From Bolinopsis microptera (lineage: Eukaryota; Ctenophora; Tentaculata; Lobata; Bolinopsidae), in the NCBI RefSeq assembly GCF_026151205.1, contig NC_087072.1, positions 1,881,375-1,945,374 on the forward strand: a stretch of DNA of 64,000 nucleotides, in the 5' to 3' direction. The notes under the pieces were generated by a model that did not search any database, was not told where the DNA came from, and worked only from the letters and a program-made list of their open reading frames with translations. Positions within the stretch are counted from its first letter, which is position 1. Each line of letters begins with the position of its first letter. The translations under genes and the position numbers were made by a program. Positions 19,810 to 54,032 of the stretch are shown here, one piece after another.

Positions 19810-22800
19810 CCAGACTACCTCTATACTCTAGAGTACCAGACTACCTCTATACTCTAGAGTCTATACTTGAACAACAGCTTCAAGTTACCGACTATAATGC
19901 CAGACTACCTCTATACTCTAGAGTCTATACTTGAACAACAGCTTCAAGTTACCGACTATAATGCCAGACTACCTCTATACTCTAGAGTCTATAATGCCAG
20001 ACTACCTCTATACTCTAGAGTCTATACTTGAACAACAGCTTCAAGTTACCGACTATAATGCCAGACTACCTCTATACTCTAGAGTCTATACTTGAACAAC
20101 AGCTTCAAGTTACCGACTATAATGCCAGACTACCTCTATACTCTAGAGTCTATACTTGAACAACAGCTTCAAGTTACCGACTATAATGCCAGACTACCTC
20201 TATACTCTAGAGTCTATACTTGAACAACAGCTTCAAGTTACCGACTATAATGCCAGACTACCTCTATACTCTAGAGTCTATACTTGAACAACAGCTTCAA
20301 GTTACTGGCTATAATGCCAGACTACCTCTATACTCTAGAGTCTATACTTGAACAACAGCTTCAAGTTACCGACTATAATGCCAGACTACCTCTATACTCT
20401 AGAGTCTATACTTGAACAACAGCTTCAAGTTACCGACTATAATGCCAGACTACCTCTATACTCTAGAGTCTATACTTGAACAACAGCTTCAAGTTACCTA
20501 CTATAATGCCAGACTACCTTTATACTCTAGAGTCTATACTTGAACAACAGCTTCAAGTTCTGGTACCGACTATAATGCCAGACTACCTCTATACTCTAGA
20601 GTCTATACTTGAACAACAGCTTCAAGTTACCGACTATAATGCCAGACTACCTCTATACTCTAGAGTCTATACTTGAACAACAGCTTCAAGTCTGTACCGA
20701 CTATAATGCCAGACTACCTCTATACTCTAGAGTCTATACTTGAACAACAGCTTCAAGTTACCGACTATAATGCCAGACTACCTCTATACTCTAGAGTCTT
20801 TACTTGAACAACAGCTTCAAGTTACCGACTATAATGCCAGACTACCTCTATACTCTAGAGTCTATACTTGAACATTGAACAACAGCTTCAAGTTACCAAC
20901 TATAATGCCAGACTACCTCTATACTCTAGAGTCTATACTTGAACAACAGCTTCAAGTTACCGGCTATAATGCCAGACTACCTCTATACTCTAGAGTCTAT
21001 ACTTGAACAACAGCTTCAAGTTACCGACTATAATGCCAGACTACCTCTATACTCTAGAGTCTATACTTGAACAACAGCTTCAAGTTACCGGCTATAATGC
21101 CAGACTACCTCTATACTCTAGAGTCTATACTTGAACAACAGCTTCAAGTTACCGACTATAATGCCAGACTACCTCTATACTCTAGAGTCTATACTTGAAC
21201 AACAGCTTCAAGTTACCGACTATAATGCCAGACTACCTCTATACTCTAGAGTCTATACTTGAACAACAGCTTCAAGTTACCGACTATAATGCCAGACTAC
21301 CTCTATACTCTAGAGTCTATACTTGAACAACAGCTTCAAGTTACCGACTATAATGCAGACTACCTCTATACTCTAGAGTCTATACTTGAACAACAGCTTC
21401 AAGTTACCGACTATAATGCCAGACTACCTCTATACTCTAGAGTCTATACTTGAACAACAGCTTCAAGTTACCGACTATAATGCCAGACTACCTCTATACT
21501 CTAGAGTCTATACTTGAACAACAGCTTCAAGTTACCGACTATAATGCCAGACTACCTCTATACTCTAGAGTCTATACTTGAACAACAGCTTCAAGTTACC
21601 GGCTATAATGCCAGACTACCTCTATACTCTAGAGTCTATACTTGAACAACAGCTTCAAGTTACCGACTATAATGCCAGACTACCTCTATACTCTAGAGTC
21701 TATACTTGAACAACAGCTTCAAGTTACCGACTATAATGCCAGACTACCTCTATACTCTAGAGTCTATACTTGAACAACAGCTTCAAGTTACCGACTATAA
21801 TGCCAGACTACCTCTATACTCTAGAGTCTATACTTGAACAACAGCTTCAAGTTACCGACTATAATGCCAGACTACCTCTATACTCTAGAGTCTATACTTG
21901 AACAACAGCTTCAAGTTACCGACTATAATGCCAGACTACCTCTATACTCTAGAGTCTATACTTGAACAACAGCTTCAAGTTACCGACTATAATGCCAGAC
22001 TACCTCTATACTCTAGAGTCTATACTTGAACAACAGCTTCAAGTTACCGGCTATAATGCCAGACTACCTCTATACTCTAGAGTCTATACTTGAACAACAG
22101 CTTCAAGTTACCGACTATAATGCCAGACTACCTCTATACTCTAGAGTCTATACTTGAACAACAGCTTCAAGTTACCGACTATAATGCCAGACTACCTCTA
22201 TACTCTAGAGTCTATACTTGAACAACAGCTTCAAGTTACCGACTATAATGCCAGACTACCTCTATACTCTAGAGTCTATACTTGAACAACAGCTTCAAGT
22301 TACCGGCTATAATGCCAGACTACCTCTATACTCTAGAGTCTATACTTGAACAACAGCTTCAAGTTACCGACTATAATGCCAGACTACCTCTATACTCTAG
22401 AGTCTATACTTGAACAACAGCTTCAAGTTACCGACTATAATGCCAGACTACCTCTATACTCTAGAGTCTATACTTGAACAACAGCTTCAAGTTACCGACT
22501 ATAATGCCAGACTACCTCTATACTCTAGAGTCTATACTTGAACAACAGCTTCAAGTTACCGACTATAATGCCAGACTACCTCTATACTCTAGAGTCTATA
22601 CTTGAACAACAGCTTCAAGTTACCGACTATAATGCCAGACTACCTCTATACTCTAGAGTCTATACTTGAACAACAGCTTCAAGTTACCGACTATAATGCC
22701 AGACTACCTCTATACTCTAGAGTCTATACTTGAACAACAGCTTCAAGTTACCGACTATAATGCCAGACTACCTCTATACTCTAGAGTCTATACTTGAACA

Positions 22801-24701
22801 ACAGCTTCAAGTTACCGACTATAATGCCAGACTACCTCTATACTCTAGAGTCTATACTTGAACAACAGCTTCAAGTTACCGACTATAATGCCAGACTACC
22901 TCTATACTCTAGAGTCTATACTTGAACAACAGCTTCAAGTTACCGACTATAATGCCAGACTACCTCTATACTCTAGAGTCTATACTTGAACAACAGCTTC
23001 AAGTTACCGACTATAATGCCAGACTACCTCTATACTCTAGAGTCTATACTTGAACAACAGCTTCAAGTTACCGACTATAATGCCAGACTACCTCTATACT
23101 CTAGAGTCTATACTTGAACAACAGCTTCAAATTACCGACTATAATGCAGACTACCTCTATACTCTAGAGTCTATAATGCCAGACTACCTCTATACTCTAG
23201 AGTCTATACTTGAACAACAGCTTCAAGTTACCGACTATAATGCCAGACTACCTCTATACTCTAGAGTCTGTACTTGAACAACAGCTTCAAGTTACCGACT
23301 ATAATGCCAGACTACCTCTATACTCGAGAGTCTATACTTGAACAACAGCTTCAAGTTACCGACTATAATGCCAGACTACCTCTATACTCTAGAGTCTATA
23401 CTTGAACAACAGCTTCAAGTTACCGACTATAATGCCAGACTACCTCTATACTCTAGAGTCTATACTTGAACAACAGCTTCAAGTTACCGACTATAATGCC
23501 AGACTACCTCTATACTCTAGAGTCTATACTTGAACAACAGCTTCAAGTTACCGACTATAATGCCAGACTACCTCTATACTCTAGAGTCTATACTTGAACA
23601 ACAGCTTCAAGTTACCGACTATAATGCCAGACTACCTCTATACTCTAGAGTCTATACTTGAACAACAGCTTCAAGTTACCGACTATAATGCCAGACTACC
23701 TCTATACTCTAGAGTCTATACTTGAACAACAGCTTCAAGTTACCGACTATAATGCCAGACTACCTCTATACTCTAGAGTCTATACTTGAACAACAGCTTC
23801 AAGTTACCGGCTATAATGCCAGACTACCTCTATACTCTAGAGTCTATACTTGAACAACAGCTTCAAGTTACCGACTATAATGCCAGACTACCTCTATACT
23901 CTAGAGTCTATACTTGAACAACAGCTTCAAGTTACCGACTATAATGCCAGACTACCTCTATACTCTAGAGTCTATACTTGAACAACAGCTTCAAGTTACC
24001 GACTATAATGCCAGACTACCTCTATACTCTAGAGTCTATACTTGAACAACAGCTTCAAGTTACCGACTATAATGCCAGACTACCTCTATACCCTAGAGTC
24101 TATACTTGAACAACAGCTTCAAGTTACCGACTATAATGCCAGACTACCTCTATACTCTAGAGTCTATACTTGAACAACAGCTTCAAGTTACCGACTATAA
24201 TGCCAGACTACCTCTATACTCTAGAGTCTATACTTGAACAACAGCTTCAAGTTACCGACTATAATGCCAGACTACCTCTATACTCTAGAGTCTATACTTG
24301 AACAACAGCTTCAAGTTACCGACTATAATGCCAGACTACCTCTATACTCTAGAGTCTATACTTGAACAACAGCTTCAAGTTACCGACTATAATGCCAGAC
24401 TACCTCTATACTCGAGAGTCTATACTTGAACAACAGCTTCAAGTTACCGACTATAATGCCAGACTACCTCTATACTCGAGAGTCTATACTTGAACAACAG
24501 CTTCAAGTTACCGACTATAATGCCAGACTACCTCTATACTCTAGAGTCTATACTTGAACAACAGCTTCAAGTTACCGACTATAATGCCAGACTACCTCTA
24601 TACTCTAGAGTCTATACTTGAACAACAGCTTCAAGTTACCGACTATAATGCCAGACTACCTCTATACTCTAGAGTCTATACTTGAACAACAGCTTCAAGT
24701 T
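19810..24701. repeat. 64-bp satellite array, ~76 copies
   Basis: The unit is 64 bp, as direct spacing of successive GACTATAATGCCAG motifs shows. It carries ACTCTAGAGT, a perfect 10-bp palindrome with an XbaI-type core, followed by CTATACTTGAACAACAGC. Copies are nearly identical. Variants are GGCTATAATG for GACTATAATG, a CTCGAGAG variant at about 23325, 24413 and 24477, single-base deletions (TGCAGAC) and a few short units at the left edge and near 23170. The period is not a multiple of 3, so the ORFs inside it are artefacts. There are no unique spacers, so this is not a CRISPR-type array. Confidence 0.98.
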
Positions 24702-42542: not shown

Positions 42543-44185
42543 CAGCAGCGTAACGTTGGCGCCCCCCACCGAAGATGCGCCCTCCCCTCCCCTCCCCCCC
42601 CCCCCTGTTGGCGCCCCTCCCCTTTTATTTTGGCGCCCCTCCCTAAAATTGAACAAATCAGGTGATTTTAAAGGATACGCCATTTAAAATCTCTAAAAAA
42701 GTGTATTTCTAGCTAAGATGGCAAGTACGTACGGTACGTACCTTTAACTTAGCTGTACGGTACGTACTTAATAAAGTAGGCTGAAAGGTACAAATCCAGT
42801 GGATAGCAATGGACAAGCGTAGATTAAGGTTGCGACATGAGCTAGCTGAAAAGCTGGTGTTCGTATACTGCAACAAAAGGAATAAGGATGAAGCTTTGAG
42901 TTTAACGATAATTATAAGTAGTAGTAGTGTAGTACCGGTTAATTTGTGTGTTTATTTTCGACCTCTAGTTCTGTCTCAAAAATTATGATGATAATACTAA
43001 TCAAAAATTGCAAGTAATTCACTGAAGTTGATTCTAAAAATTTGAAAAAAAATTGTACCTTACAGTGCCTGTACCGTACGTACCTTTAAAAGTAGCTGTA
43101 CCGTACGTACTTAAAGCCCTGTACCGTACGTACTTGCCATCTAAGATTTCTAGAGCAAAACACGCTGTTTTGCTAGTACCTCAGTTAAGTTTTTCAAAAT
43201 TTTCCCACATTCGAACGACGATTTTCGCCCCCTAAGATGGCGACTCCCCCCTCCCCCCCCCCCCCCCCCCTACAGCGGGGTCAGCGGAGCCCTTTGTTAC
43301 GCCACTGATTTACGGCATAGTTAAGGGACACTTAATTAAGCCCAGTTAATGCTTTAATGGACATTGGAGTAATATCAACAAGAACATGCCGAGAAATCAC
43401 TGTGCTCAACTTGATCGTAGAGTGTGTTCTAAAAATAAACTCAAGGCGCTCTCACCTAGGGTATGATCCATGGCTTTTCTAATGGCCTTTGTTTTAATGC
43501 TCAGTTTGTGGGGGAGTTAGCAACGGGTTTGCTTGCCACAATAAAGCAGGAACCCTCTTCATGCAATGCTCATGAATAAAGCATTGTTATGTTTATTTCA
43601 CAGTAAGATAATCTCACACTGACGGGTATTTACCATTCGCTGCGACATATTACAAGCTACCATGAACATAGTGTTCACTAAGAACACCGACTGAAGGACC
43701 TTGGCAAAAATGCCAATGACCGCCTGGATCCAGTTTATTTTAACTCATACTTATAATGTATGAATCTGAGGTGTCAGCGGGGAGCTAATTGCCGGCAAGA
43801 CCGTTTAAGATAATGTGGTTGCATCATCTTAGCGTATTATGAACTATCTTATCCTTCTTTGTAGGGGCTGTGGTCAAGGTATTTACTAAAAAATAGAACA
43901 TAGAAGCCCTGTGCTAGGGTACAGGTAGATATACAGCTAGTGGAATGAATAAAATGCACTTAAGATCAGTGGTTTAACCGTGCCTTACGTACCTTACGTG
44001 CCTGCGCGCGCTAAATAACCCCTGTGTGTTATCCGTGTCTTAGACTCTTAGACAAGGGACATACCTTATTGGACATATTAAGTGTCACGGACAAGTTATT
44101 CACGGACCAAATTTATCACGGACATAATTATTCACGCTCAAGATCACCGCCCATAAGTGTTTTACTCTTTTTCTGAACTCAAGAA
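42543..44185. repeat. dispersed repeat copy A
   Basis: Matches copy B (pieces at 47650-48007, 51399-51792, 52570-52783 and 54033-54185) over about 1.2 kb once insertions are removed. The left part, from CAGCAGCGTAACG to GTTACGCCACTG (43307), has hAT-like ends (CAGnnGCGTAAC both sides, poly-C interior). The right part carries GACGGGTATTTACCATTCGC and GTTATCCGTGTCTTA. Copy A preserves the empty target sites used in copy B: CTCAACTT (43405-43412), TTATAA (43751-43756) and CTTAAGAT (about 43960). Copy A itself contains the MITE at 42713-43145. Confidence 0.85.
42713..43145. mobile_element. 433-bp MITE with 8-bp target duplication
   Basis: Terminal inverted repeats CTAAGATGGCAAGTACGTAC / GTACGTACTTGCCATCTAAG (one mismatch), flanked by perfect 8-bp duplications ATTTCTAG (42705-42712 and 43146-43153). 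Copy B shows the uninterrupted site GTGTATTTCTAGAGC at about 47784. The subterminal regions are rich in GTACGTAC palindromes. An 8-bp duplication fits hAT-type transposition, but the ends lack the usual CAGNG. There is no ORF of note. Confidence 0.9.
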
Positions 44186-46538: not shown

Positions 46539-46608
46539 ATTACCTGCTTAGGAACAGACAGCCACATTTAGGGATACTATACTTGTTGCCCTTTAATTCT
46601 CACATTAA

Positions 46609-47446
46609 GGCCACAGGGGGGGGTCCGAGGTCGATTTTGAGATTTTGAGATATGTTGTAGAGCTCGATCTAAATTTTCAAATGCTTTTGTCCTTACCGAA
46701 AACAAAGTTTCCTATTTGAAGATATCGCGCGTTGAATTTTGAGGTTTACCTGTAATTCTATTGTAAATGAAAACTTTAAATGAAATCGTGTTCAAAATCT
46801 ATCTTCTTTTTCAGTTTATGACTTAGAACCTTGTAACTTGGCAACAATGTTCTTCAAGGTATTTTGAGTTTTTGTTATGTAACGATTTATGATATCTTGC
46901 TCCAAAGCTGAGATATGAGGTTAACCATGAGTGCGGGTTACAAAATTTAAAATGGTTAACCTCATAAAAAGAGTTAGGAGCAAAATTACAACAATCGTTA
47001 CATAACAAACTTTTAAATTTATGTCAGGAACATAAGTTCCAAATTTGAGGTGAAATGGATAAAAACTCTAGGAGAAGATAGATTTTGAAGTCAAAAGTTC
47101 GAGGTTTTCAGAAGAGGCAAAAAACTGTTTTTCATGTTATGTGATTTTTGAGTATTTTGCCTTCATTTGTATATTTTTCAAAGTTTAACTGCTGAAATAA
47201 CACAAAAACAATAAAAACAAAGCTTATCGTAGTTTTCAGTTGTAATGGTATCAATATTTCTGCCCTCCATTATCGATTTATCAAAAAAATGAGGTTAAAT
47301 GAGAATTGGTTAACCTCATTTATTAAAAAAAGTAAAATAGCTACAGACAAATGAGTGGTGGCAAAGTATCCACCACAAAAATATATATTGATTCAAAGCA
47401 TAATATTTTTTTGCATTTTTTGAAGCCTCGACCCCCCCCTGTGGCC
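46609..47446. mobile_element. TTAA-flanked MITE, 838 bp
   Basis: Terminal inverted repeats GGCCACAGGGGGG / CCCCCCCTGTGGCC lie directly inside TTAA on both sides (46605-46608 and 47447-47450), the target pattern of piggyBac-type transposases. Inside is a large imperfect hairpin (about 46872-47010) with arms GTTATGTAACGAT..GAGGTTAACCAT and ATGGTTAACCTCA..ATCGTTACATAAC. There is no ORF of note, so it is non-autonomous. Confidence 0.75.
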
Positions 47447-48125
47447 TTAAGAGTGAAAAGGCAGTTGAAGCTCATGATACAATGTGGACAATCTATCTGC
47501 ACAACTCATAAATATAAATGTGGATTCTGGTGGGGAGGTGAGGCATATTTTTTGACACGTGACAGCAATTAACCAATCAGCATATACTATTCTGAGTCTC
47601 TTTCTCATGCATATTTGAACTTTGAAGTATAACGTTAGGTTTGACGCTGAGAACAGCGTAACGTTGGCGCCCCCCCCCCCCCCCCTGTTGGCGTCCCCTC
47701 CCCTTTTATTTTGGCCTCCCTCCCTAAAATTGAACAAATTAGGTGATTTTAGAAGATACGCCGTTAAAATCTCTATAAAAGTGTATTTCTAGAGCAAAAC
47801 ACCCTGTTTTGCTAGTACCTCAGTTAAGTTTTTCAAAATTATCCCACATTCGAACGACGATTTCGCAAGACCTTACAGCGGGGTCAGCGGAGCCCTTTCT
47901 TACGCCATTGATTTACGGCACGGTTAAGGGACACTTAATTAAGCCCAGTTAATGGACATTGGAGTAATATCAACAAGAACATGCCGAGAGATCACAGTGC
48001 TCAACTTTGAAGTAAGATTATTCAAACAATATACACATAATATAACAATTACCCTATATAAAAATTCGATATAAATTCAATAGAAAACTAAATAAACACC
48101 CTTTAAGTAGTATAAGTAAGCCAGT

Positions 48126-50033
48126 TTAAAGAACTGGCTCCAAATTTATATCTAATTCTGCTATTTTTACTGCACTACTACTTTTTAACCCTCTCTCTCC
48201 TCTAAGAGCTATGACTGTTGTTCTCAAAAGGTCAAATCTTACTCTCTTCCTAATAAATGTCATTGCCTCACTATATCGTTGGCCTGATTTCCTAGAAAGT
48301 TTATCCGCTAATTTCTTGAAGAACTTATTAGCTTCCCTTCCCATACCCCCAGTGGTTGATAGGACTATCGGTGTAAACGTCCCATGTTCCACTTCTACAA
48401 TCCTTTTATTGTATAAATTCTTTTTCTGTCTCTCGTGGCTATTGTACATAGTGGTTGGAGATCCAAGAGCCTTATTGGAAGGAGCTTGAGCATGAAATAC
48501 TCTTACATCTAAAAATGCCCTTTCCAATGGGTTCCATACACTCCTAGCACTAACATCTAATCTAGCTCCATCTGCTTTGTTGGCCCCTGCAGGAAGTTCT
48601 CTCCCGTTGACAGGAATGAGGAGAGGTTCAGTGGTAACATCTTTACAGCCAGCAGTTTCTAATAGCTCTGCTATCACATCCCTCAATGAGTTGTGGCGAA
48701 GAGATACATATCCACCCCTTTTGCATATTAATGAGTGGTTTATTGAGTTGTCACTTCCACATACACATTTTCTTGCAGCATCTTTTATCCCAAAGTTGTA
48801 CCTTAGGGCTAGGGCATCATTGAATTCTTGCTTGTTGAGACAGAATCCGAATGATTTGAGCGGGAGTGACGAAAGCCAGGAACTTGCCCCTTTCTCTGAT
48901 GTAAGATCTAATTGCAATTTTTGGGTTTCATTCAGGTCATTTGTAACCTCTTCTTTTCTCTCCTTGAAAAACTCTTCCCTTGATTTTCGGATTTCAGTCT
49001 TGATCTCTACTAGTTTTTCCTGATCATCAAAAAAATCTTGGTGCTGGTTGTATATTGCTTCTGTAAGATCTAATGTTACTTTGCAGGAATACTCGTACTC
49101 TAGGTCAGACATCAAACTCAGATCGTATATACCAAGACCCCCTTCTTTGACTGGTAATGCAAAGAGTTTTCTACTGGTTTGGTCGGTTCCAAACGACCTG
49201 TCCAATATTGCTGGTATAAAGGATTCTTGAATTTTGTATTCTAGTCTCCTGAGGTGTTGACTGATACCAGGTGTTGTTCGACATACATAATTCCATCTTT
49301 TAGATAGCCCATAGTTGAACGCAGAATAAGCTGCCTGAGGTTCCCTCTTGGCAATATCTGCCAGATCTTCGATATCGTTAATCCATTCATCAACTTTACT
49401 ATCTAAAAACGTTTTTGTCCCCTCCTCAGTTCCAATGAATGATCCAAGATATCTGTGTCCAACCTCTGATATTTGTAAATCTGGAAACATTTTTTCTGCT
49501 TTTTCTTTACAATGTGGTTTAACAATGAGCCATGTTTTGGCTGGCTTGGGATAATAGCCAAACAGTGGCCCGGTTTCAATAAGTTTTTCCCACCATCTCA
49601 GAACCTCTTCCAGTTTTCCCCCACCAGCTGCATCGTCTGCATACCATACCTGTTTCACTTTGCTTGCATCAGATGTTGATTGTGCAACAGTTTGAACTAG
49701 AGGCATAAGGGAGCAAGAGTATTTTCCCATTGCACAATTATCTCCCTGGGTTACCCCTTCTTCACTTAGCAGTTCCTTGTCTGAGTTGGATATAAAGAGT
49801 CTTGCTGGATTCCTGTACGTGTTTATGAGGTAAGTAGCAATCTCTGGGCAGATAAATTGTATGTTGTGTAGGGCTGCGGTTCGGTTAAGTCTGTTGAATG
49901 CATTATCTGCATCTACTAAGATAATTGCTTCAGTTTCATCGTCATTGAATATTCTCCTTAGGCCATGAACAGCAGCCTCTACTCCACCTGATAGCCCAGC
50001 GCATACTTGGATGGGAGCCGTTGCTCCAACCAT
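48126..50033 (-). pseudogene. retroelement RT palm/thumb and REL endonuclease
   Basis: 635 codons. RT motif A is VDADNAFNRLNR (residues about 40-51), motif B GVTQGDNCAMG, and motif C the catalytic YADDAAGGG. After the thumb there is a long helical part. The C-terminal domain has CVCG..NHSLIC followed by SLRHNSLRD, a CCHC/RHN arrangement as in R2-type endonucleases. It then has ADGARLDV and, 16 residues on, FLDVRVF, which gives the spaced acidic residues of the PD-(D/E)XK-like REL nuclease. It ends ..DINLEPVL. All catalytic residues that I can place are present. Only the upstream stop and frameshift disable it. Confidence 0.85.
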
Positions 50034-50039
50034 ATCAGA

Positions 50040-50915
50040 TTAAAGGACTCTTGATATTGCTTTGCCAATAATGCGTCTTAGCACCTCCCCTATCCCCACA
50101 GGTCTCACTCCAGGTTTCTTATCAAGGGGTATTAATCGGCAAGCTGTGTAAGCTTCCAAATGCTCTGGGATAACATTTTTGGTGCACAGTTTCCTGGCCA
50201 TAGCTGCAATGTTCTCTGCCAACTGTTTTGATTTTGAGGAGAACTGTTTTGAGCAAAGAATACGCTTCCAGCCATCTGCATCGAGACCCGATGGTCCAGC
50301 AGAACCACTCATTTTCCTGGCACACAACTCAATCAGATCTCCATCAATGTTTTCATAAATGACATCCTCAACATTTTGCTTCGCACCAAGAAGTAAGGAA
50401 CCCTTTCCCGCTGGTGTTGGAGGTGGATGTTTGTCTTTAAGAGTTTTCATTACATCGGGGGTCACATCTAAGACTGATGTTGCCTGAGATCCTATCCATC
50501 GCATAGCATTTGATACTTTCCCTTGAAGCATTAGTCTGACAAATACTTTTTCTTTGTTCTCTTCTGTCTTCTTTCCCTTAGTGAGTCTCTTCTGAATTTC
50601 CATTCCTTCCCTTAGAAGTGATTGTAGGTCCCCATCTGTCCACCATTTCAGTCTTTTCTCCAAGTACTCAACATGCTTCTTTGTTTTAGATTTCTTTGAT
50701 GGCTTCTGCAATAGAAGTGGGGGCATAACCATGAGCAACTTGATAGCAACTTCTTCCATTCCTGTACCATTGATGTAGTATCCTACAATCTTTGACATCT
50801 CTTCAATTAAACGTTTTCCCGACTTCCCAGATGGAATTTTAAAGAGATTTATTTTCCACTTGATTGTCTCCGAATAGGCATCATTTACAGCCTTTATTAT
50901 ATCATTTCCCTTCAA
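50040..50915 (-). pseudogene. retroelement linker and RT N-terminal part
   Basis: The frame opens with KGNDIIKAVNDAYSETIKW and runs through a basic linker to the RT fingers. It has the loop SAGPSGLDADGWKRI (equivalent to GPDG/GPSGL in RT motif 0/1) and LIPLDKKPGVRPVGIGEVLRRI (motif 2, the K-x-x-x-x-R-P-I/V signature). It ends at TAA (50040-50042), in phase with the next open frame two codons later. Only a nonsense change separates them, not an intron. Confidence 0.8.
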
Positions 50916-51307
50916 CGAATTACCCCAACGACAGTTTTCGATGTTACTAGTAGGTGTTGCTGGTGTTGGAATAGATGTATACTTTCTTCGACCTGTCTCC
51001 TTTCTTCGACCTGTCTCCTCAAAACTCGAATAGCTTCGGTGATGGGGTTGTCTTCGTCTTCCTCTTCGTTGCTCTTCTTCTCTTTGCTACATCTTTGACA
51101 TGACCACTCAGAATCATTTTCCGATAGGTCTTTAAACTCCAACTCCGACAGTCCACTACAAGCGCTATGGAACCATCGACCACACATCCCCTCACATAGA
51201 ATACAGTCGTACATGACTTCCTTTGAACAAAATCCACAGATATCAGCATTATTTTCAATTCGCTTTAATACTCTGGACCTAGTGTCCATTTTTCTAGTGT
51301 CCGGCAT
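50912..51307 (-). pseudogene. retroelement N-terminus: PHD finger
   Basis: 131 codons from an ATG 92 nt inside the 5' end. Residues about 24-73 form a C4HC3 PHD finger: CGFC, CILCEGMC, WFHSAC, then WSCQRC, with the expected Trp before the last Cys pair. A Glu-rich coil follows (RRQVEERRQVEES). PHD fingers read histone H3 tails, so it may steer integration to chromatin (inference). The frame ends at a TGA, while the upstream-extended next frame (..RWGNSLKGND..) overlaps it. One indel at about 50920-50950 therefore splits an originally continuous ORF. Confidence 0.75.
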
Positions 51308-51792
51308 TCCAACCCAAAAACAGGTACCACTACTGTTGCCGAGTCGGTTACCAGCAGAAACTGAAGCTTACCGCTGTCAGTCCCTACTGGATACGGGTCT
51401 CAACTTGATCGTAGAGTGTGTTCTAAAAATAAACTCAAGGCACTCTCACCTAGGAGTAGGGTATGATCCATGGCTTTTCTAATGGCCTTTGTTTTAATGC
51501 TCAGTTTGTGGGGGATCAGTTAGCAACGGGTTTGCTTGCCACAATAAAGCAGAAACCCTCTTCATGCAATGCTCATGAATAAAGCATTGTTATGTCATTG
51601 GTCTGGGTACCTGCTTCGACTCCTTTCTTTATTTCACAGTAAGATAATCTCACACTGACGGGTATTTACCATTCGCTGCGACATATTACAAACTACCATG
51701 AACATAGTGTTCACTAAGAACACTGACTGAAGGACCTTGGCAAAAATGCCAATGACCGCCTGGATCCAGTTTATTTTAACTCATACTTATAA

Positions 51793-52569
51793 TAACATAA
51801 ACCCGCCACGCAAAGGGTTTATATAACAGATCATCCCGCGCTAGCGGGATGATCTGATAAACACATACAAGTGCGCGCAGCGCACGAGTTTTGTGTTAAT
51901 ATGTAATCCCGAAGCGCCAGCTGAGGGATTACATTTATTTAGCCCTGAGCGTGAAGTGTTTATGGATTATAATTATCTCCGGCGATTTCGACAAGGGATT
52001 TATACTTTAGAACACGATTGGAAAGCAGTTCATCAATCTGAATGTCAAACCGATCTGTCATAGTGGAGCAATAGCTTGAACGTTAGCAGGAACAAGAGCT
52101 GGAAGGAGAGCAAGCAAAACAATACTATTTTTAGGGCACGGACAAGGGTAGCTGGCTAGTCGCCAACTTCTCACGCCACGCGTTGGAGAAATTCCAAGAA
52201 TTAGCTGCTTTGGCAACGTTCCCAGGAATTTGCGTGTAAAAGAAGTGGACGGTTACGATGTTTTATATCACGTGGTGCGCTTTCGTGTCACGTGGTATAG
52301 ACTCGGCGTATGCTATTGGTGGCACGTGGTACGCACGTGACGCGCCCACGTGATCGCGCGTCTAACTGTTCTACTATTATCGAGTTCTAATCAGCAGTAT
52401 CATTGATTATTGTAAGTCGGAGAATTGAATGATAAACATCAGTTACGACTAAAAAGCGGGCCGGGTTTATACAAATTTCCGGGGCGGGATGATATCACCT
52501 TGAGATGTTTATCTAACAGCGGGCCGGGCTGAGTGATAATATGAGCCCGCGTCGAAATCCCGGAGATAT
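51793..52569 (+). mobile_element. TTATAA-flanked non-autonomous element, copy 2
   Basis: A 777-bp element between perfect TTATAA duplications (51787-51792 and 52570-52575). Copy A of the dispersed repeat shows the empty site (43751-43756). It is the inverted equivalent of 27351-28121, nearly identical except for a ~70-80-bp core (about 52010-52085) that is unrelated in the two copies. It carries the same five CACGTG sites (about 52268-52355) and the GATCATCCCGC hairpin near 51835. Confidence 0.9.
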
Positions 52570-52783: not shown

Positions 52784-54032
52784 CATGGGCACATATTAGG
52801 TGCGATGGGTGCGGGATCGCACAATTTACCGTTTTCCGCACACTTCCGCATAATTTATTGTTTTCCGCACATTTCCGCACATTTTGTAATTATCTGCATA
52901 TTTCCGCATAATCTAGCATTTTCCGCGTAATTTCACATAATTTTGAAATTTTCGCGTAAAGATTTTCGAGTTTAAAAACCAAAATATGTTAAAAGTCGGG
53001 CCCTTTTAGGACCGTGACTCAGGCCCTTTCGGGACCCTGACCCAGGCCCTTTCGGGACCATGACCCAGGCCCTTTCGGGACCGTGACCCAGGGGCCAGGC
53101 CCTTTTGGAACTCATACCTAGGCCACGTGACCCAGTTACCACGTGACTCAGGCCCTTTCGGGACCGTGACCCAGGCCCTTTCGGGACCCTGACCCAGGCC
53201 CTTTCGAGACCGTGACCCAGGCCCTTTTGGAACTCATGCTTAGGTCACGTGACCCGGTTACCACGTGACCGAGGCCCTTTCGGGACCGTGACCCAGGCCC
53301 TTTCGGGACCATTACCCAGGCCCTTTCGGGACCCTGACCAAGGCCCTTTCGGGACCCTGACCCAGGCCATTTCGGGACCCTGACCCAGGCCCTTTCGGGA
53401 CCGTTACCCAGGTCCTTTCGGGACTGTGATCCAGGCCATTATGGAACCCTCGTCGTTACCGTACCTTGATTATAGTGTATCAGTTATCATTCGTATAGTA
53501 GGTGATAATAGAAGAAGTAGGTGTAAAGGGTAATGAGCTTTATTCGTTGCAGCGTTGGCTTTGTATTGGGCTTAATGGATCTTGGATCAAATGGTTCACA
53601 AATACTGACGATCAATGCCAATAAGCGTGTCACATATTTGCGATCACGCATGGGATCTGATCGACTCTATCAAGAGGCGTCTTCAAATAACTGTATCCTG
53701 ATTCCTGATCTCTACCAGATCAAGTCACTGTTCTCAGATAACTGAATCTCAATATAGGTTCAATCATGGTCTTATTAAAGAACTACACCCTCAGTAACAC
53801 ATAAACAGACCAATTTTTGATAAGAGCGGCGGTTATACGTTTAGAATTTCCAAAGTCCTTGAGAAAATGCAAAAAAATCCGCACAATTCCCGCACAAATT
53901 TCAAAAAAATCGCCGCACATTTGCCGCATAATTGATAAAAATTTACCGCACCTTACCGCACATTTTACCTTTATAGTCGGGTGCGGTACCGCATAATTTC
54001 GATTTTTTTACCGCACCTAATATGTGCCTCTG
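52784..54032. mobile_element. hAT-like non-autonomous element with internal satellite
   Basis: 1249 bp. Ends CATGGGCACATATTAGGTG and its inverse CACCTAATATGTGCCTCTG are flanked by the 8-bp duplication CTTAAGAT (52776-52783 and 54033-54040), with an intact site in copy A. Both subterminal regions are dense in TTTCCGCAC / CCGCACAT motifs, which may be transposase-binding repeats as in other hAT elements (inference). The middle is a 22-bp minisatellite. The 70-codon frame at 53533-53745 has no recognisable domain. Confidence 0.9.
52998..53445. repeat. 22-bp minisatellite inside the hAT-like element, ~20 copies
   Basis: Units of the type CAGGCCCTTTCGGGACCGTG, with alternation of ..ACCGTGA and ..ACCCTGA and two longer insertions carrying CACGTGACCC. 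Each unit contains the imperfect palindrome CCCTTTCGGG. Confidence 0.93.

Follow-up and report, generated by a model that had tools for sequence, protein, structure and literature searches.

What kind of retrotransposon carries a PHD finger at one end and a restriction-like endonuclease at the other, and does such an element exist beyond a single damaged copy? The question is raised by a locus of the ctenophore Bolinopsis microptera, in the 64,000-nucleotide stretch analysed here (the window; contig NC_087072.1, positions 1881375-1945374), where a first-pass annotation had read, from the letters alone, a non-long-terminal-repeat (non-LTR) retroelement combining a PHD finger with an R2-type endonuclease. 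The element belongs to a real family of long interspersed nuclear elements (LINEs) that have a restriction-like endonuclease (RLE) and carry PHD fingers; RLE LINEs and PHD-bearing LINEs are each known already, and the combination appears to be new. We consider it very likely that these are non-LTR retrotransposons of the RLE type with a single open reading frame (ORF), ordered PHD finger(s), linker, reverse transcriptase (RT), thumb, CCHC knuckle and RLE, which would propagate by a cycle of target-primed reverse transcription. This is supported by the architecture, the intact copies, the target-site duplications, the 5' truncation of the window copy, a shared 3' tail, the lack of a detectable apurinic/apyrimidinic endonuclease (APE) and the conserved catalytic-type residues.

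The insertion is 3391 bp long and lies on the minus strand, as do all of its features, with its 5' end at 51398 and its 3' end at 48008 (element coordinates are window positions throughout). Direct 8-bp repeats, CTCAACTT, flank it at 48000-48007 (3' side) and 51399-51406 (5' side), and a paralogous segment without the element, 4-8 kb away inside the window and with flanking pieces about 90-99% identical, has a single CTCAACTT octamer at 43405-43412. The octamers at both ends and the empty site together define the element as 48008-51398, exactly the bounds first proposed. The gene of this copy is broken, by a frameshift separating the PHD piece from the RT piece and by a TAA stop at 50040-50042. 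The N-terminus and PHD finger are in an open frame at 50912-51367, which is lost near 51000 and corresponds to part of a single open frame in the intact copy L003; a second frame, 50040-51086, ends in the TAA and encodes the pre-RT linker (conserved, with no known domain) and the first RT motifs; and ORF translation places the remaining RT and the C-terminal domain at 48126-50039. The C4HC3 PHD finger is at 51089-51238, the RT fingers and palm (motifs VRPVGIGE, DADNAFNRLNR, TQGD, YADD and YLGS) at approximately 49440-50115, crossing the stop, and the thumb, whose EGGLGI aligns to the GGL motif of R2, at approximately 49130-49440. The zinc knuckle (CxC-x7-H-x3-C) lies at 48723-48767 and the RLE at 48342-48698, with RHN at 48690-48698 and GGM at its low end; from the family alignment, its predicted catalytic residues are D 48555-48557, D 48507-48509, K 48423-48425 and Y 48411-48413. 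The PHD finger, the RT motifs and the C-terminal CCHC/RHN segment with ADGARLDV and FLDVRVF that had been named in the first reading are all present. No Rfam family matches in the window.

The host genome (264.65 Mb, 232 contigs) contains at least 75 matches to the RT-endonuclease piece of the element, a lower bound (2404 first-look candidates, 69 scored), most of which fall into groups with 84-100%, 53-58% or 45-46% identity to the window copy. Intact copies elsewhere in the genome had been suggested as a check, and they are found in each of the three identity groups as single frames of 1076-1179 aa (stop to stop), with PHD, RT and RLE in one protein in several subfamilies. The layout of PHD, linker, RT, knuckle and RLE is common to the six aligned subfamily representatives. 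Some copies are nearly identical (L015/L017 99.5%, L027/L028 99.0%, L032/L033 99.6%), from which we judge that the family was probably mobile in the recent past. A profile of six family PHDs, supplied by six of the 33 family loci themselves (L002-L034, L002 being the window copy), detects a PHD in 23 of the 33, the match in L031 being partial, which shows that the finger is not a fused host exon. At E<=0.1 the Pfam PHD model matches six of the seven aligned members, the exception being L001. This 1076-aa relative is encoded on a 3592-bp contig (JAAXHO010000193.1) in a Candidatus Poribacteria metagenome-assembled genome, where it probably represents contamination from a sponge host. Searches of PDB, viral_contigs, phages and plasmids with the window RT-endonuclease pieces gave no credible relative, matches to ribosomal and PPR proteins being judged chance; pattern and alignment queries of viral_contigs gave no relative either, with 0 matches to a CRE-directed pattern, and the family profiles A2 and A3 (A3 covering the endonuclease) match nothing in PDB at E<=10.

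The ends of the copies carry the marks of their insertion. The 5' end of the fuller copies lies about 90 nt beyond that of the window copy, which is therefore 5'-truncated. The 3' tail around TATATAGGGTCATTGCTATATTATGTGTATATTGTTTGAATAATTTTA, whose core TATATAGGGTAATTGTTATATT is at 48039-48060, is near-identical in the 27 of 33 loci where it was located by pattern, L032 of the 46% group included and L034 not, and it is followed by short, variable A/T-rich letters and no pure poly(A). A possible hairpin in the tail has seven pairs, none of them changed on both sides, and -2.3 kcal/mol, and so gives no evidence of a selected structure, only of conserved sequence. Of 13 further copies from which 5' flanks were taken, L028 was dropped, its variant tail having been missed by the tail pattern; exact duplications of 12-17 bp flank 10 of the other 12, and among 132 mismatched flank pairs none reaches 12 bp (longest 11). 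With duplications of these lengths in other copies, a fixed 8-bp duplication, as in transposase-like integration, was rejected. By eye, the flanks differ between the window copy and the 12 other copies, and hence no fixed target is seen. Target-site duplications, 5' truncation and a shared 3' tail are marks of target-primed reverse transcription. At the 5' junctions of L013-L024, the element start is often separated from the 5' duplication by tens of nucleotides of extra sequence particular to each copy. This sequence is in many cases T-rich or a repeat of the element's own 5' end, which points to template jumping or to nucleotides added without a template.

In the proposed cycle, the RNA would be translated into one protein of about 1100 aa, which would bind the short conserved 3' tail of its own RNA. 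The RLE would nick chromosomal DNA at no fixed sequence, and the RT would copy the RNA from the nick, this being target-primed reverse transcription; second-strand cleavage would then give rise to target duplications of 8-17 bp, and copying that halts before the 5' end could leave truncated copies. The PHD finger, related to PHDs that read histone H3 lysine 4 methylation (H3K4me), may take over from the DNA-binding zinc fingers (ZnF) and Myb domain of R2 the task of bringing the complex to chromatin.

The C-terminal domain of the family is, from its sequence, a restriction-like endonuclease. Such domains are described as having a CCHC knuckle, CX2-3CX7-8HX4C, upstream, and catalytic D, D and K, the lysine in a helix (K-x3-Y) (PMC5678591). 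All seven aligned members share L817-P818, C850-x-C852-x7-H860-x3-C864, R873-H874-N875, E896-P897, D920, D936, K964...Y968 and G989-G990 (numbering as in L003), the residue after G989-G990 being M, or W in L032. The CxC...H...C and RHN motifs and both catalytic-type Asp (of ARLD and DVRV) are thereby invariant in the seven relatives, with ARLD reading AAPD in one of them and DVRV varying slightly. Profile-profile alignment places the family catalytic residues in register with those of R2. Against eight pooled RLEs, comprising three R2s and the same-genome elements L058, L060-L062 and L064, the endonuclease profile A3 aligns with prob 85.0 and E 6.3e-6 over 166 columns, and none of 200 shuffles is as good (maximum score 25.7 versus 46.6 observed). 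RT and endonuclease together align to R2 with prob 82.9 and E 9.2e-6 over 503 columns, and to CR1-like elements with prob 2.3 over 98 columns. The R2 structures compared are Bombyx R2Bm (PDB 8gh6) and two vertebrate R2s, PDB 9nl3 (labelled R2Tg) and 9nl2, which we take to be R2Pm. With R2 the family shares a single ORF and the succession N-terminal finger, RT, thumb (GGL), CCHC, RHN, EP, PD..D..K..Y and GxW, collinear over those 503 columns.

Among the pooled elements from the host genome, L060, L061, L062 and L064 are further LINEs of the RLE type; their frames are 1147-1191 aa long, and they have an endonuclease motif (R)PD...E/D...K..Y and no PHD. L058 is R2-homologous, being 35% identical to a vertebrate R2 RT, and its N-terminal part carries C2H2-type fingers, as has been reported for sponges. 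R2-homologous and Utopia elements of sponges appear in a 2026 survey of animal R2s, whose main text does not mention PHD (PMC13188248).

The RT is divergent. RVT_1 has no match to the whole 637-aa window piece and a weak one, below cut-off, to its RT part alone (E 4.7e-4); among the seven relatives it matches five at E<=0.1 (best 7.4e-7). RT plus thumb aligns to R2 with prob 95.8 and E 7.4e-9 over 300 columns, and to CR1-like RTs with prob 4.2 over 98 columns. Two trees were built, the first with R2, L1 and CR1-like references, and the second with additional elements of this genome, both RLE-like and APE-type, and six of ten CR1-like rows, each including six family rows (L023 omitted from the seven). 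The family is a 100/100 clade, and L058, L060-L062 and L064 stand apart from it in the second tree. In approximately unbiased (AU) tests, grouping the family with R2 is not rejected (p 0.289 in the first tree, 0.424 in the second), nor is grouping it with all RLE elements (p 0.423, second tree). The family RT is a divergent lineage for which the AU test rejects neither an RLE nor a CR1-like grouping. The label R2-type holds for the class of endonuclease and the protein layout and does not extend to membership in the R2 clade.

Several results weigh against reading the family as single-ORF RLE elements with a PHD finger. Two of the 12 flanked copies (L026, L027) have no target-site duplication. 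Ten of the 33 family loci show no PHD with the six-member profile: L004 and L007-L012 are partial genome matches, and L014, L021 and L030 retain RT and endonuclease with a changed 5' part. The sole relative from outside the host genome, L001, has no PHD, on a contig open at its 5' end. The endonuclease match is strong against the pool only: with the three R2s it is weak (prob 4.5, P 0.009; 0/200 column shuffles reach the score, maximum 23.8 versus 25.3 observed), as it is with single RLE groups (R2 plus L058 prob 3.3, L060-L062 1.1, L064 2.1). The knuckle, CX1CX7HX3C, has ligands invariant in all seven members and falls one residue short of the published spacing in two places, and D936 and K964 are 28 residues apart, versus 17 between the corresponding residues of R2Bm. 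Aligned to one another, R2 and CR1-like RTs reach prob 99.5 and E 5.8e-23, and are far closer mutually than either is to the family, whose RT branch is long and isolated (5.0 changes per column in the first tree, 4.7 in the second).

Where the family sits among RLE elements is the point at which an alternative survives best. That it is a member of a catalogued RLE clade, a metazoan branch that carries PHD, we put at a little below even chances, with CRE-like the most likely clade and HERO, NeSL or R4 possible. RLE elements without site specificity are known in HERO, which is often not site-specific (PMC4640811), and HERO and NeSL/Utopia are RLE-type like the family. These were compared by description, and differ in that the family has no Ulp1 protease, C2H2 fingers or common target: Pfam finds no protease domain in the seven members at E<=0.1, and no zf-C2H2 or Myb match in the window copy or the seven members. 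As to the U2 target of NeSL/Utopia, the family flanks differ between copies, U2 genes themselves not having been searched. The CRE group (SLACS, CZAR, CRE and MoTeR) has an RLE and a QGD-type motif. The TQGD motif and RLE tail of the family presumably resemble those of CRE-like elements, a likeness taken from descriptions; the group differs, again by description, in its repeat-targeted insertion, which is not seen in the family. Dualen/RandI elements have both an APE and an RLE, and the family has no APE. R2 itself carries C2H2 ZnF/Myb and inserts at one fixed 28S site, whereas the family has a PHD, is not at the 28S site, and has a shorter knuckle spacing, a longer D-to-K distance and a distant RT. 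Against membership of a catalogued clade, the RLE-like elements of the same genome do not group with the family in the RT tree, although such a grouping is not rejected.

The PHD finger itself is close to the detection limit of Pfam, scoring 25.4 against a 24-bit cut-off in the window copy (E 1.4e-5) and 22.7, just below, in the intact copy L003. The full-length family profile (A1) is more informative: among the best 60 of 102 PDB matches, Pygopus PHDs come first (E 2e-11) and MLL1 PHD3 next, with PHDs of KMT2C, TAF3 and BPTF later. The Trp of the WFH/WHH motif would be part of the methyl-lysine cage. It is shared with Pygopus PHDs and is kept, together with the zinc ligands, in all six aligned family PHDs. 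In CR1-like LINEs of the host genome, three PHD-like fingers have no such Trp. There are signs of purifying selection on the PHD in some pairs, as far as substitution rates can tell: PHD-region dN/dS is 0.277 (L003-L005), 0.246 (L003-L015) and 0.25 (L018-L023), and of the other six of nine pairs one gives 1.02 on few changes, three are zero or undefined and two are saturated.

Comparisons among subfamilies indicate that modules of 5' untranslated region (UTR) and PHD have been exchanged between them. In RT-endonuclease sequence L015-L017 group with L018, L023 and L024 (L015/L023 94.7% DNA identity), and in PHD and 5' UTR with the window subfamily. L003 and L015 are 94% identical in the 5' UTR and 66.6% in RT-endonuclease DNA, with a PHD-region dS of 0.46 and a saturated remainder, and L023 and L027 have 5' UTRs that are 97.3% identical and RT-endonuclease regions at 65%. 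An N-terminal tree, weakly supported, conflicts with the RT-endonuclease tree accordingly. Template switching or recombination would be the route of exchange.

These PHDs may do something other than targeting, such as binding RNA, aiding folding, making protein-protein contacts or blocking silencing, a reading to which we give roughly one chance in three. It is favoured by the strong divergence of the finger between subfamilies (23-43% identity, the L003/L015 pair excepted) and by a further Cys-rich finger predicted in L032 and L034. It is opposed by the retained zinc ligands and Pygopus-shared Trp and by the signs of selection, neither of which amounts to histone binding. Tentatively, and with somewhat lower odds, we propose a larger scheme: the family would form a deep RLE clade of its own that replaced ZnF/Myb with a histone-reading PHD, moved from site-specific to chromatin-state-directed integration, and still exchanges its 5'-UTR/PHD 'address module' among subfamilies.

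Far less probable is that the family consists of CR1/L2-type, APE-bearing LINEs with their known PHD, the C-terminal segment being an unrelated zinc-knuckle tail. PHD fingers are common in CR1/L2, where Pygopus and MLL1 structures are likewise top matches and N-terminal modules are likewise exchanged (PMC4120745), and two CR1-like LINEs of the same genome (L050, E 0.001; L052, E 0.0034) have weak N-terminal PHD matches below the Pfam cut-off. Other CR1-like loci, also APE-type LINEs, have weak N-terminal PHD-like matches as well, and CR1-like LINEs of this genome could have served as donors of the PHD. CR1/L2 elements, however, have an APE upstream of the RT, whereas the family has none detected and an RLE downstream. 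Pfam APE families match none of the seven members at E<=0.1, and the pre-RT linker shows no APE by Pfam or hhalign (prob 0.21 against the N-terminal parts of APE LINEs). As a positive control, Pfam finds APE in all nine CR1-like LINEs scanned (ten fetched from the same genome), not always above the curated cut-off; among seven further LINEs of the genome APE is found in two (L059, L063), and the other five have RLE-like C-termini. The family C-terminus aligns to CR1-like C-termini at prob 0.12, against 85 for pooled RLEs. Grouping of the RT with APE LINEs had been named as an outcome that would count against the first reading; the CR1-like clade excludes the family (99/99 in the first tree, 98/99 in the second), yet AU does not reject their union (p 0.199 and 0.137). 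On balance the CR1/L2 reading is largely refuted. The other such outcome, a host PHD exon fused to one degenerate element, did not occur: the window copy alone is broken between PHD and RT, but its PHD lies inside the target-site duplications and the same layout recurs in intact copies elsewhere, so that this reading is refuted and next to impossible.

The surroundings of the element are themselves rich in insertions and repeats. The segment at 46605-47450 (846 bp) has perfect 21-bp terminal inverted repeats starting TTAAGGCCACAGGGGGGGG, as would fit a non-autonomous DNA transposon that targets TTAA. When compared with the empty copy at 43.1-44.1 kb, the duplicated segment that holds the retroelement shows two more insertions, at 51794-52565 and 52786-54032, each with a target-duplication-like overlap of about 10-11 bp and the second rich in GGCCCTTTCGGGACC repeats. 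A 64-bp tandem repeat, 98-99% uniform and with strong GC skew, extends over about 4.7 kb at 19989-24701.

A search of the open-licence literature (titles and beginnings of abstracts, among the matches listed; Repbase not covered) found no description of a PHD combined with an RLE. R2 and other RLE LINEs locate their targets mainly through N-terminal DNA-reading fingers, and are under development as gene-insertion tools. In the family described here, with its recent intact copies, a chromatin reader occupies the place normally taken by the DNA reader, and this natural arrangement allows a direct test of the PHD finger against H3K4 methylation at insertion sites. Natural PHD swaps for such a comparison are already in the genome, as in L015 and L023, whose RT-endonuclease DNA is 94.7% identical and whose PHDs are different.

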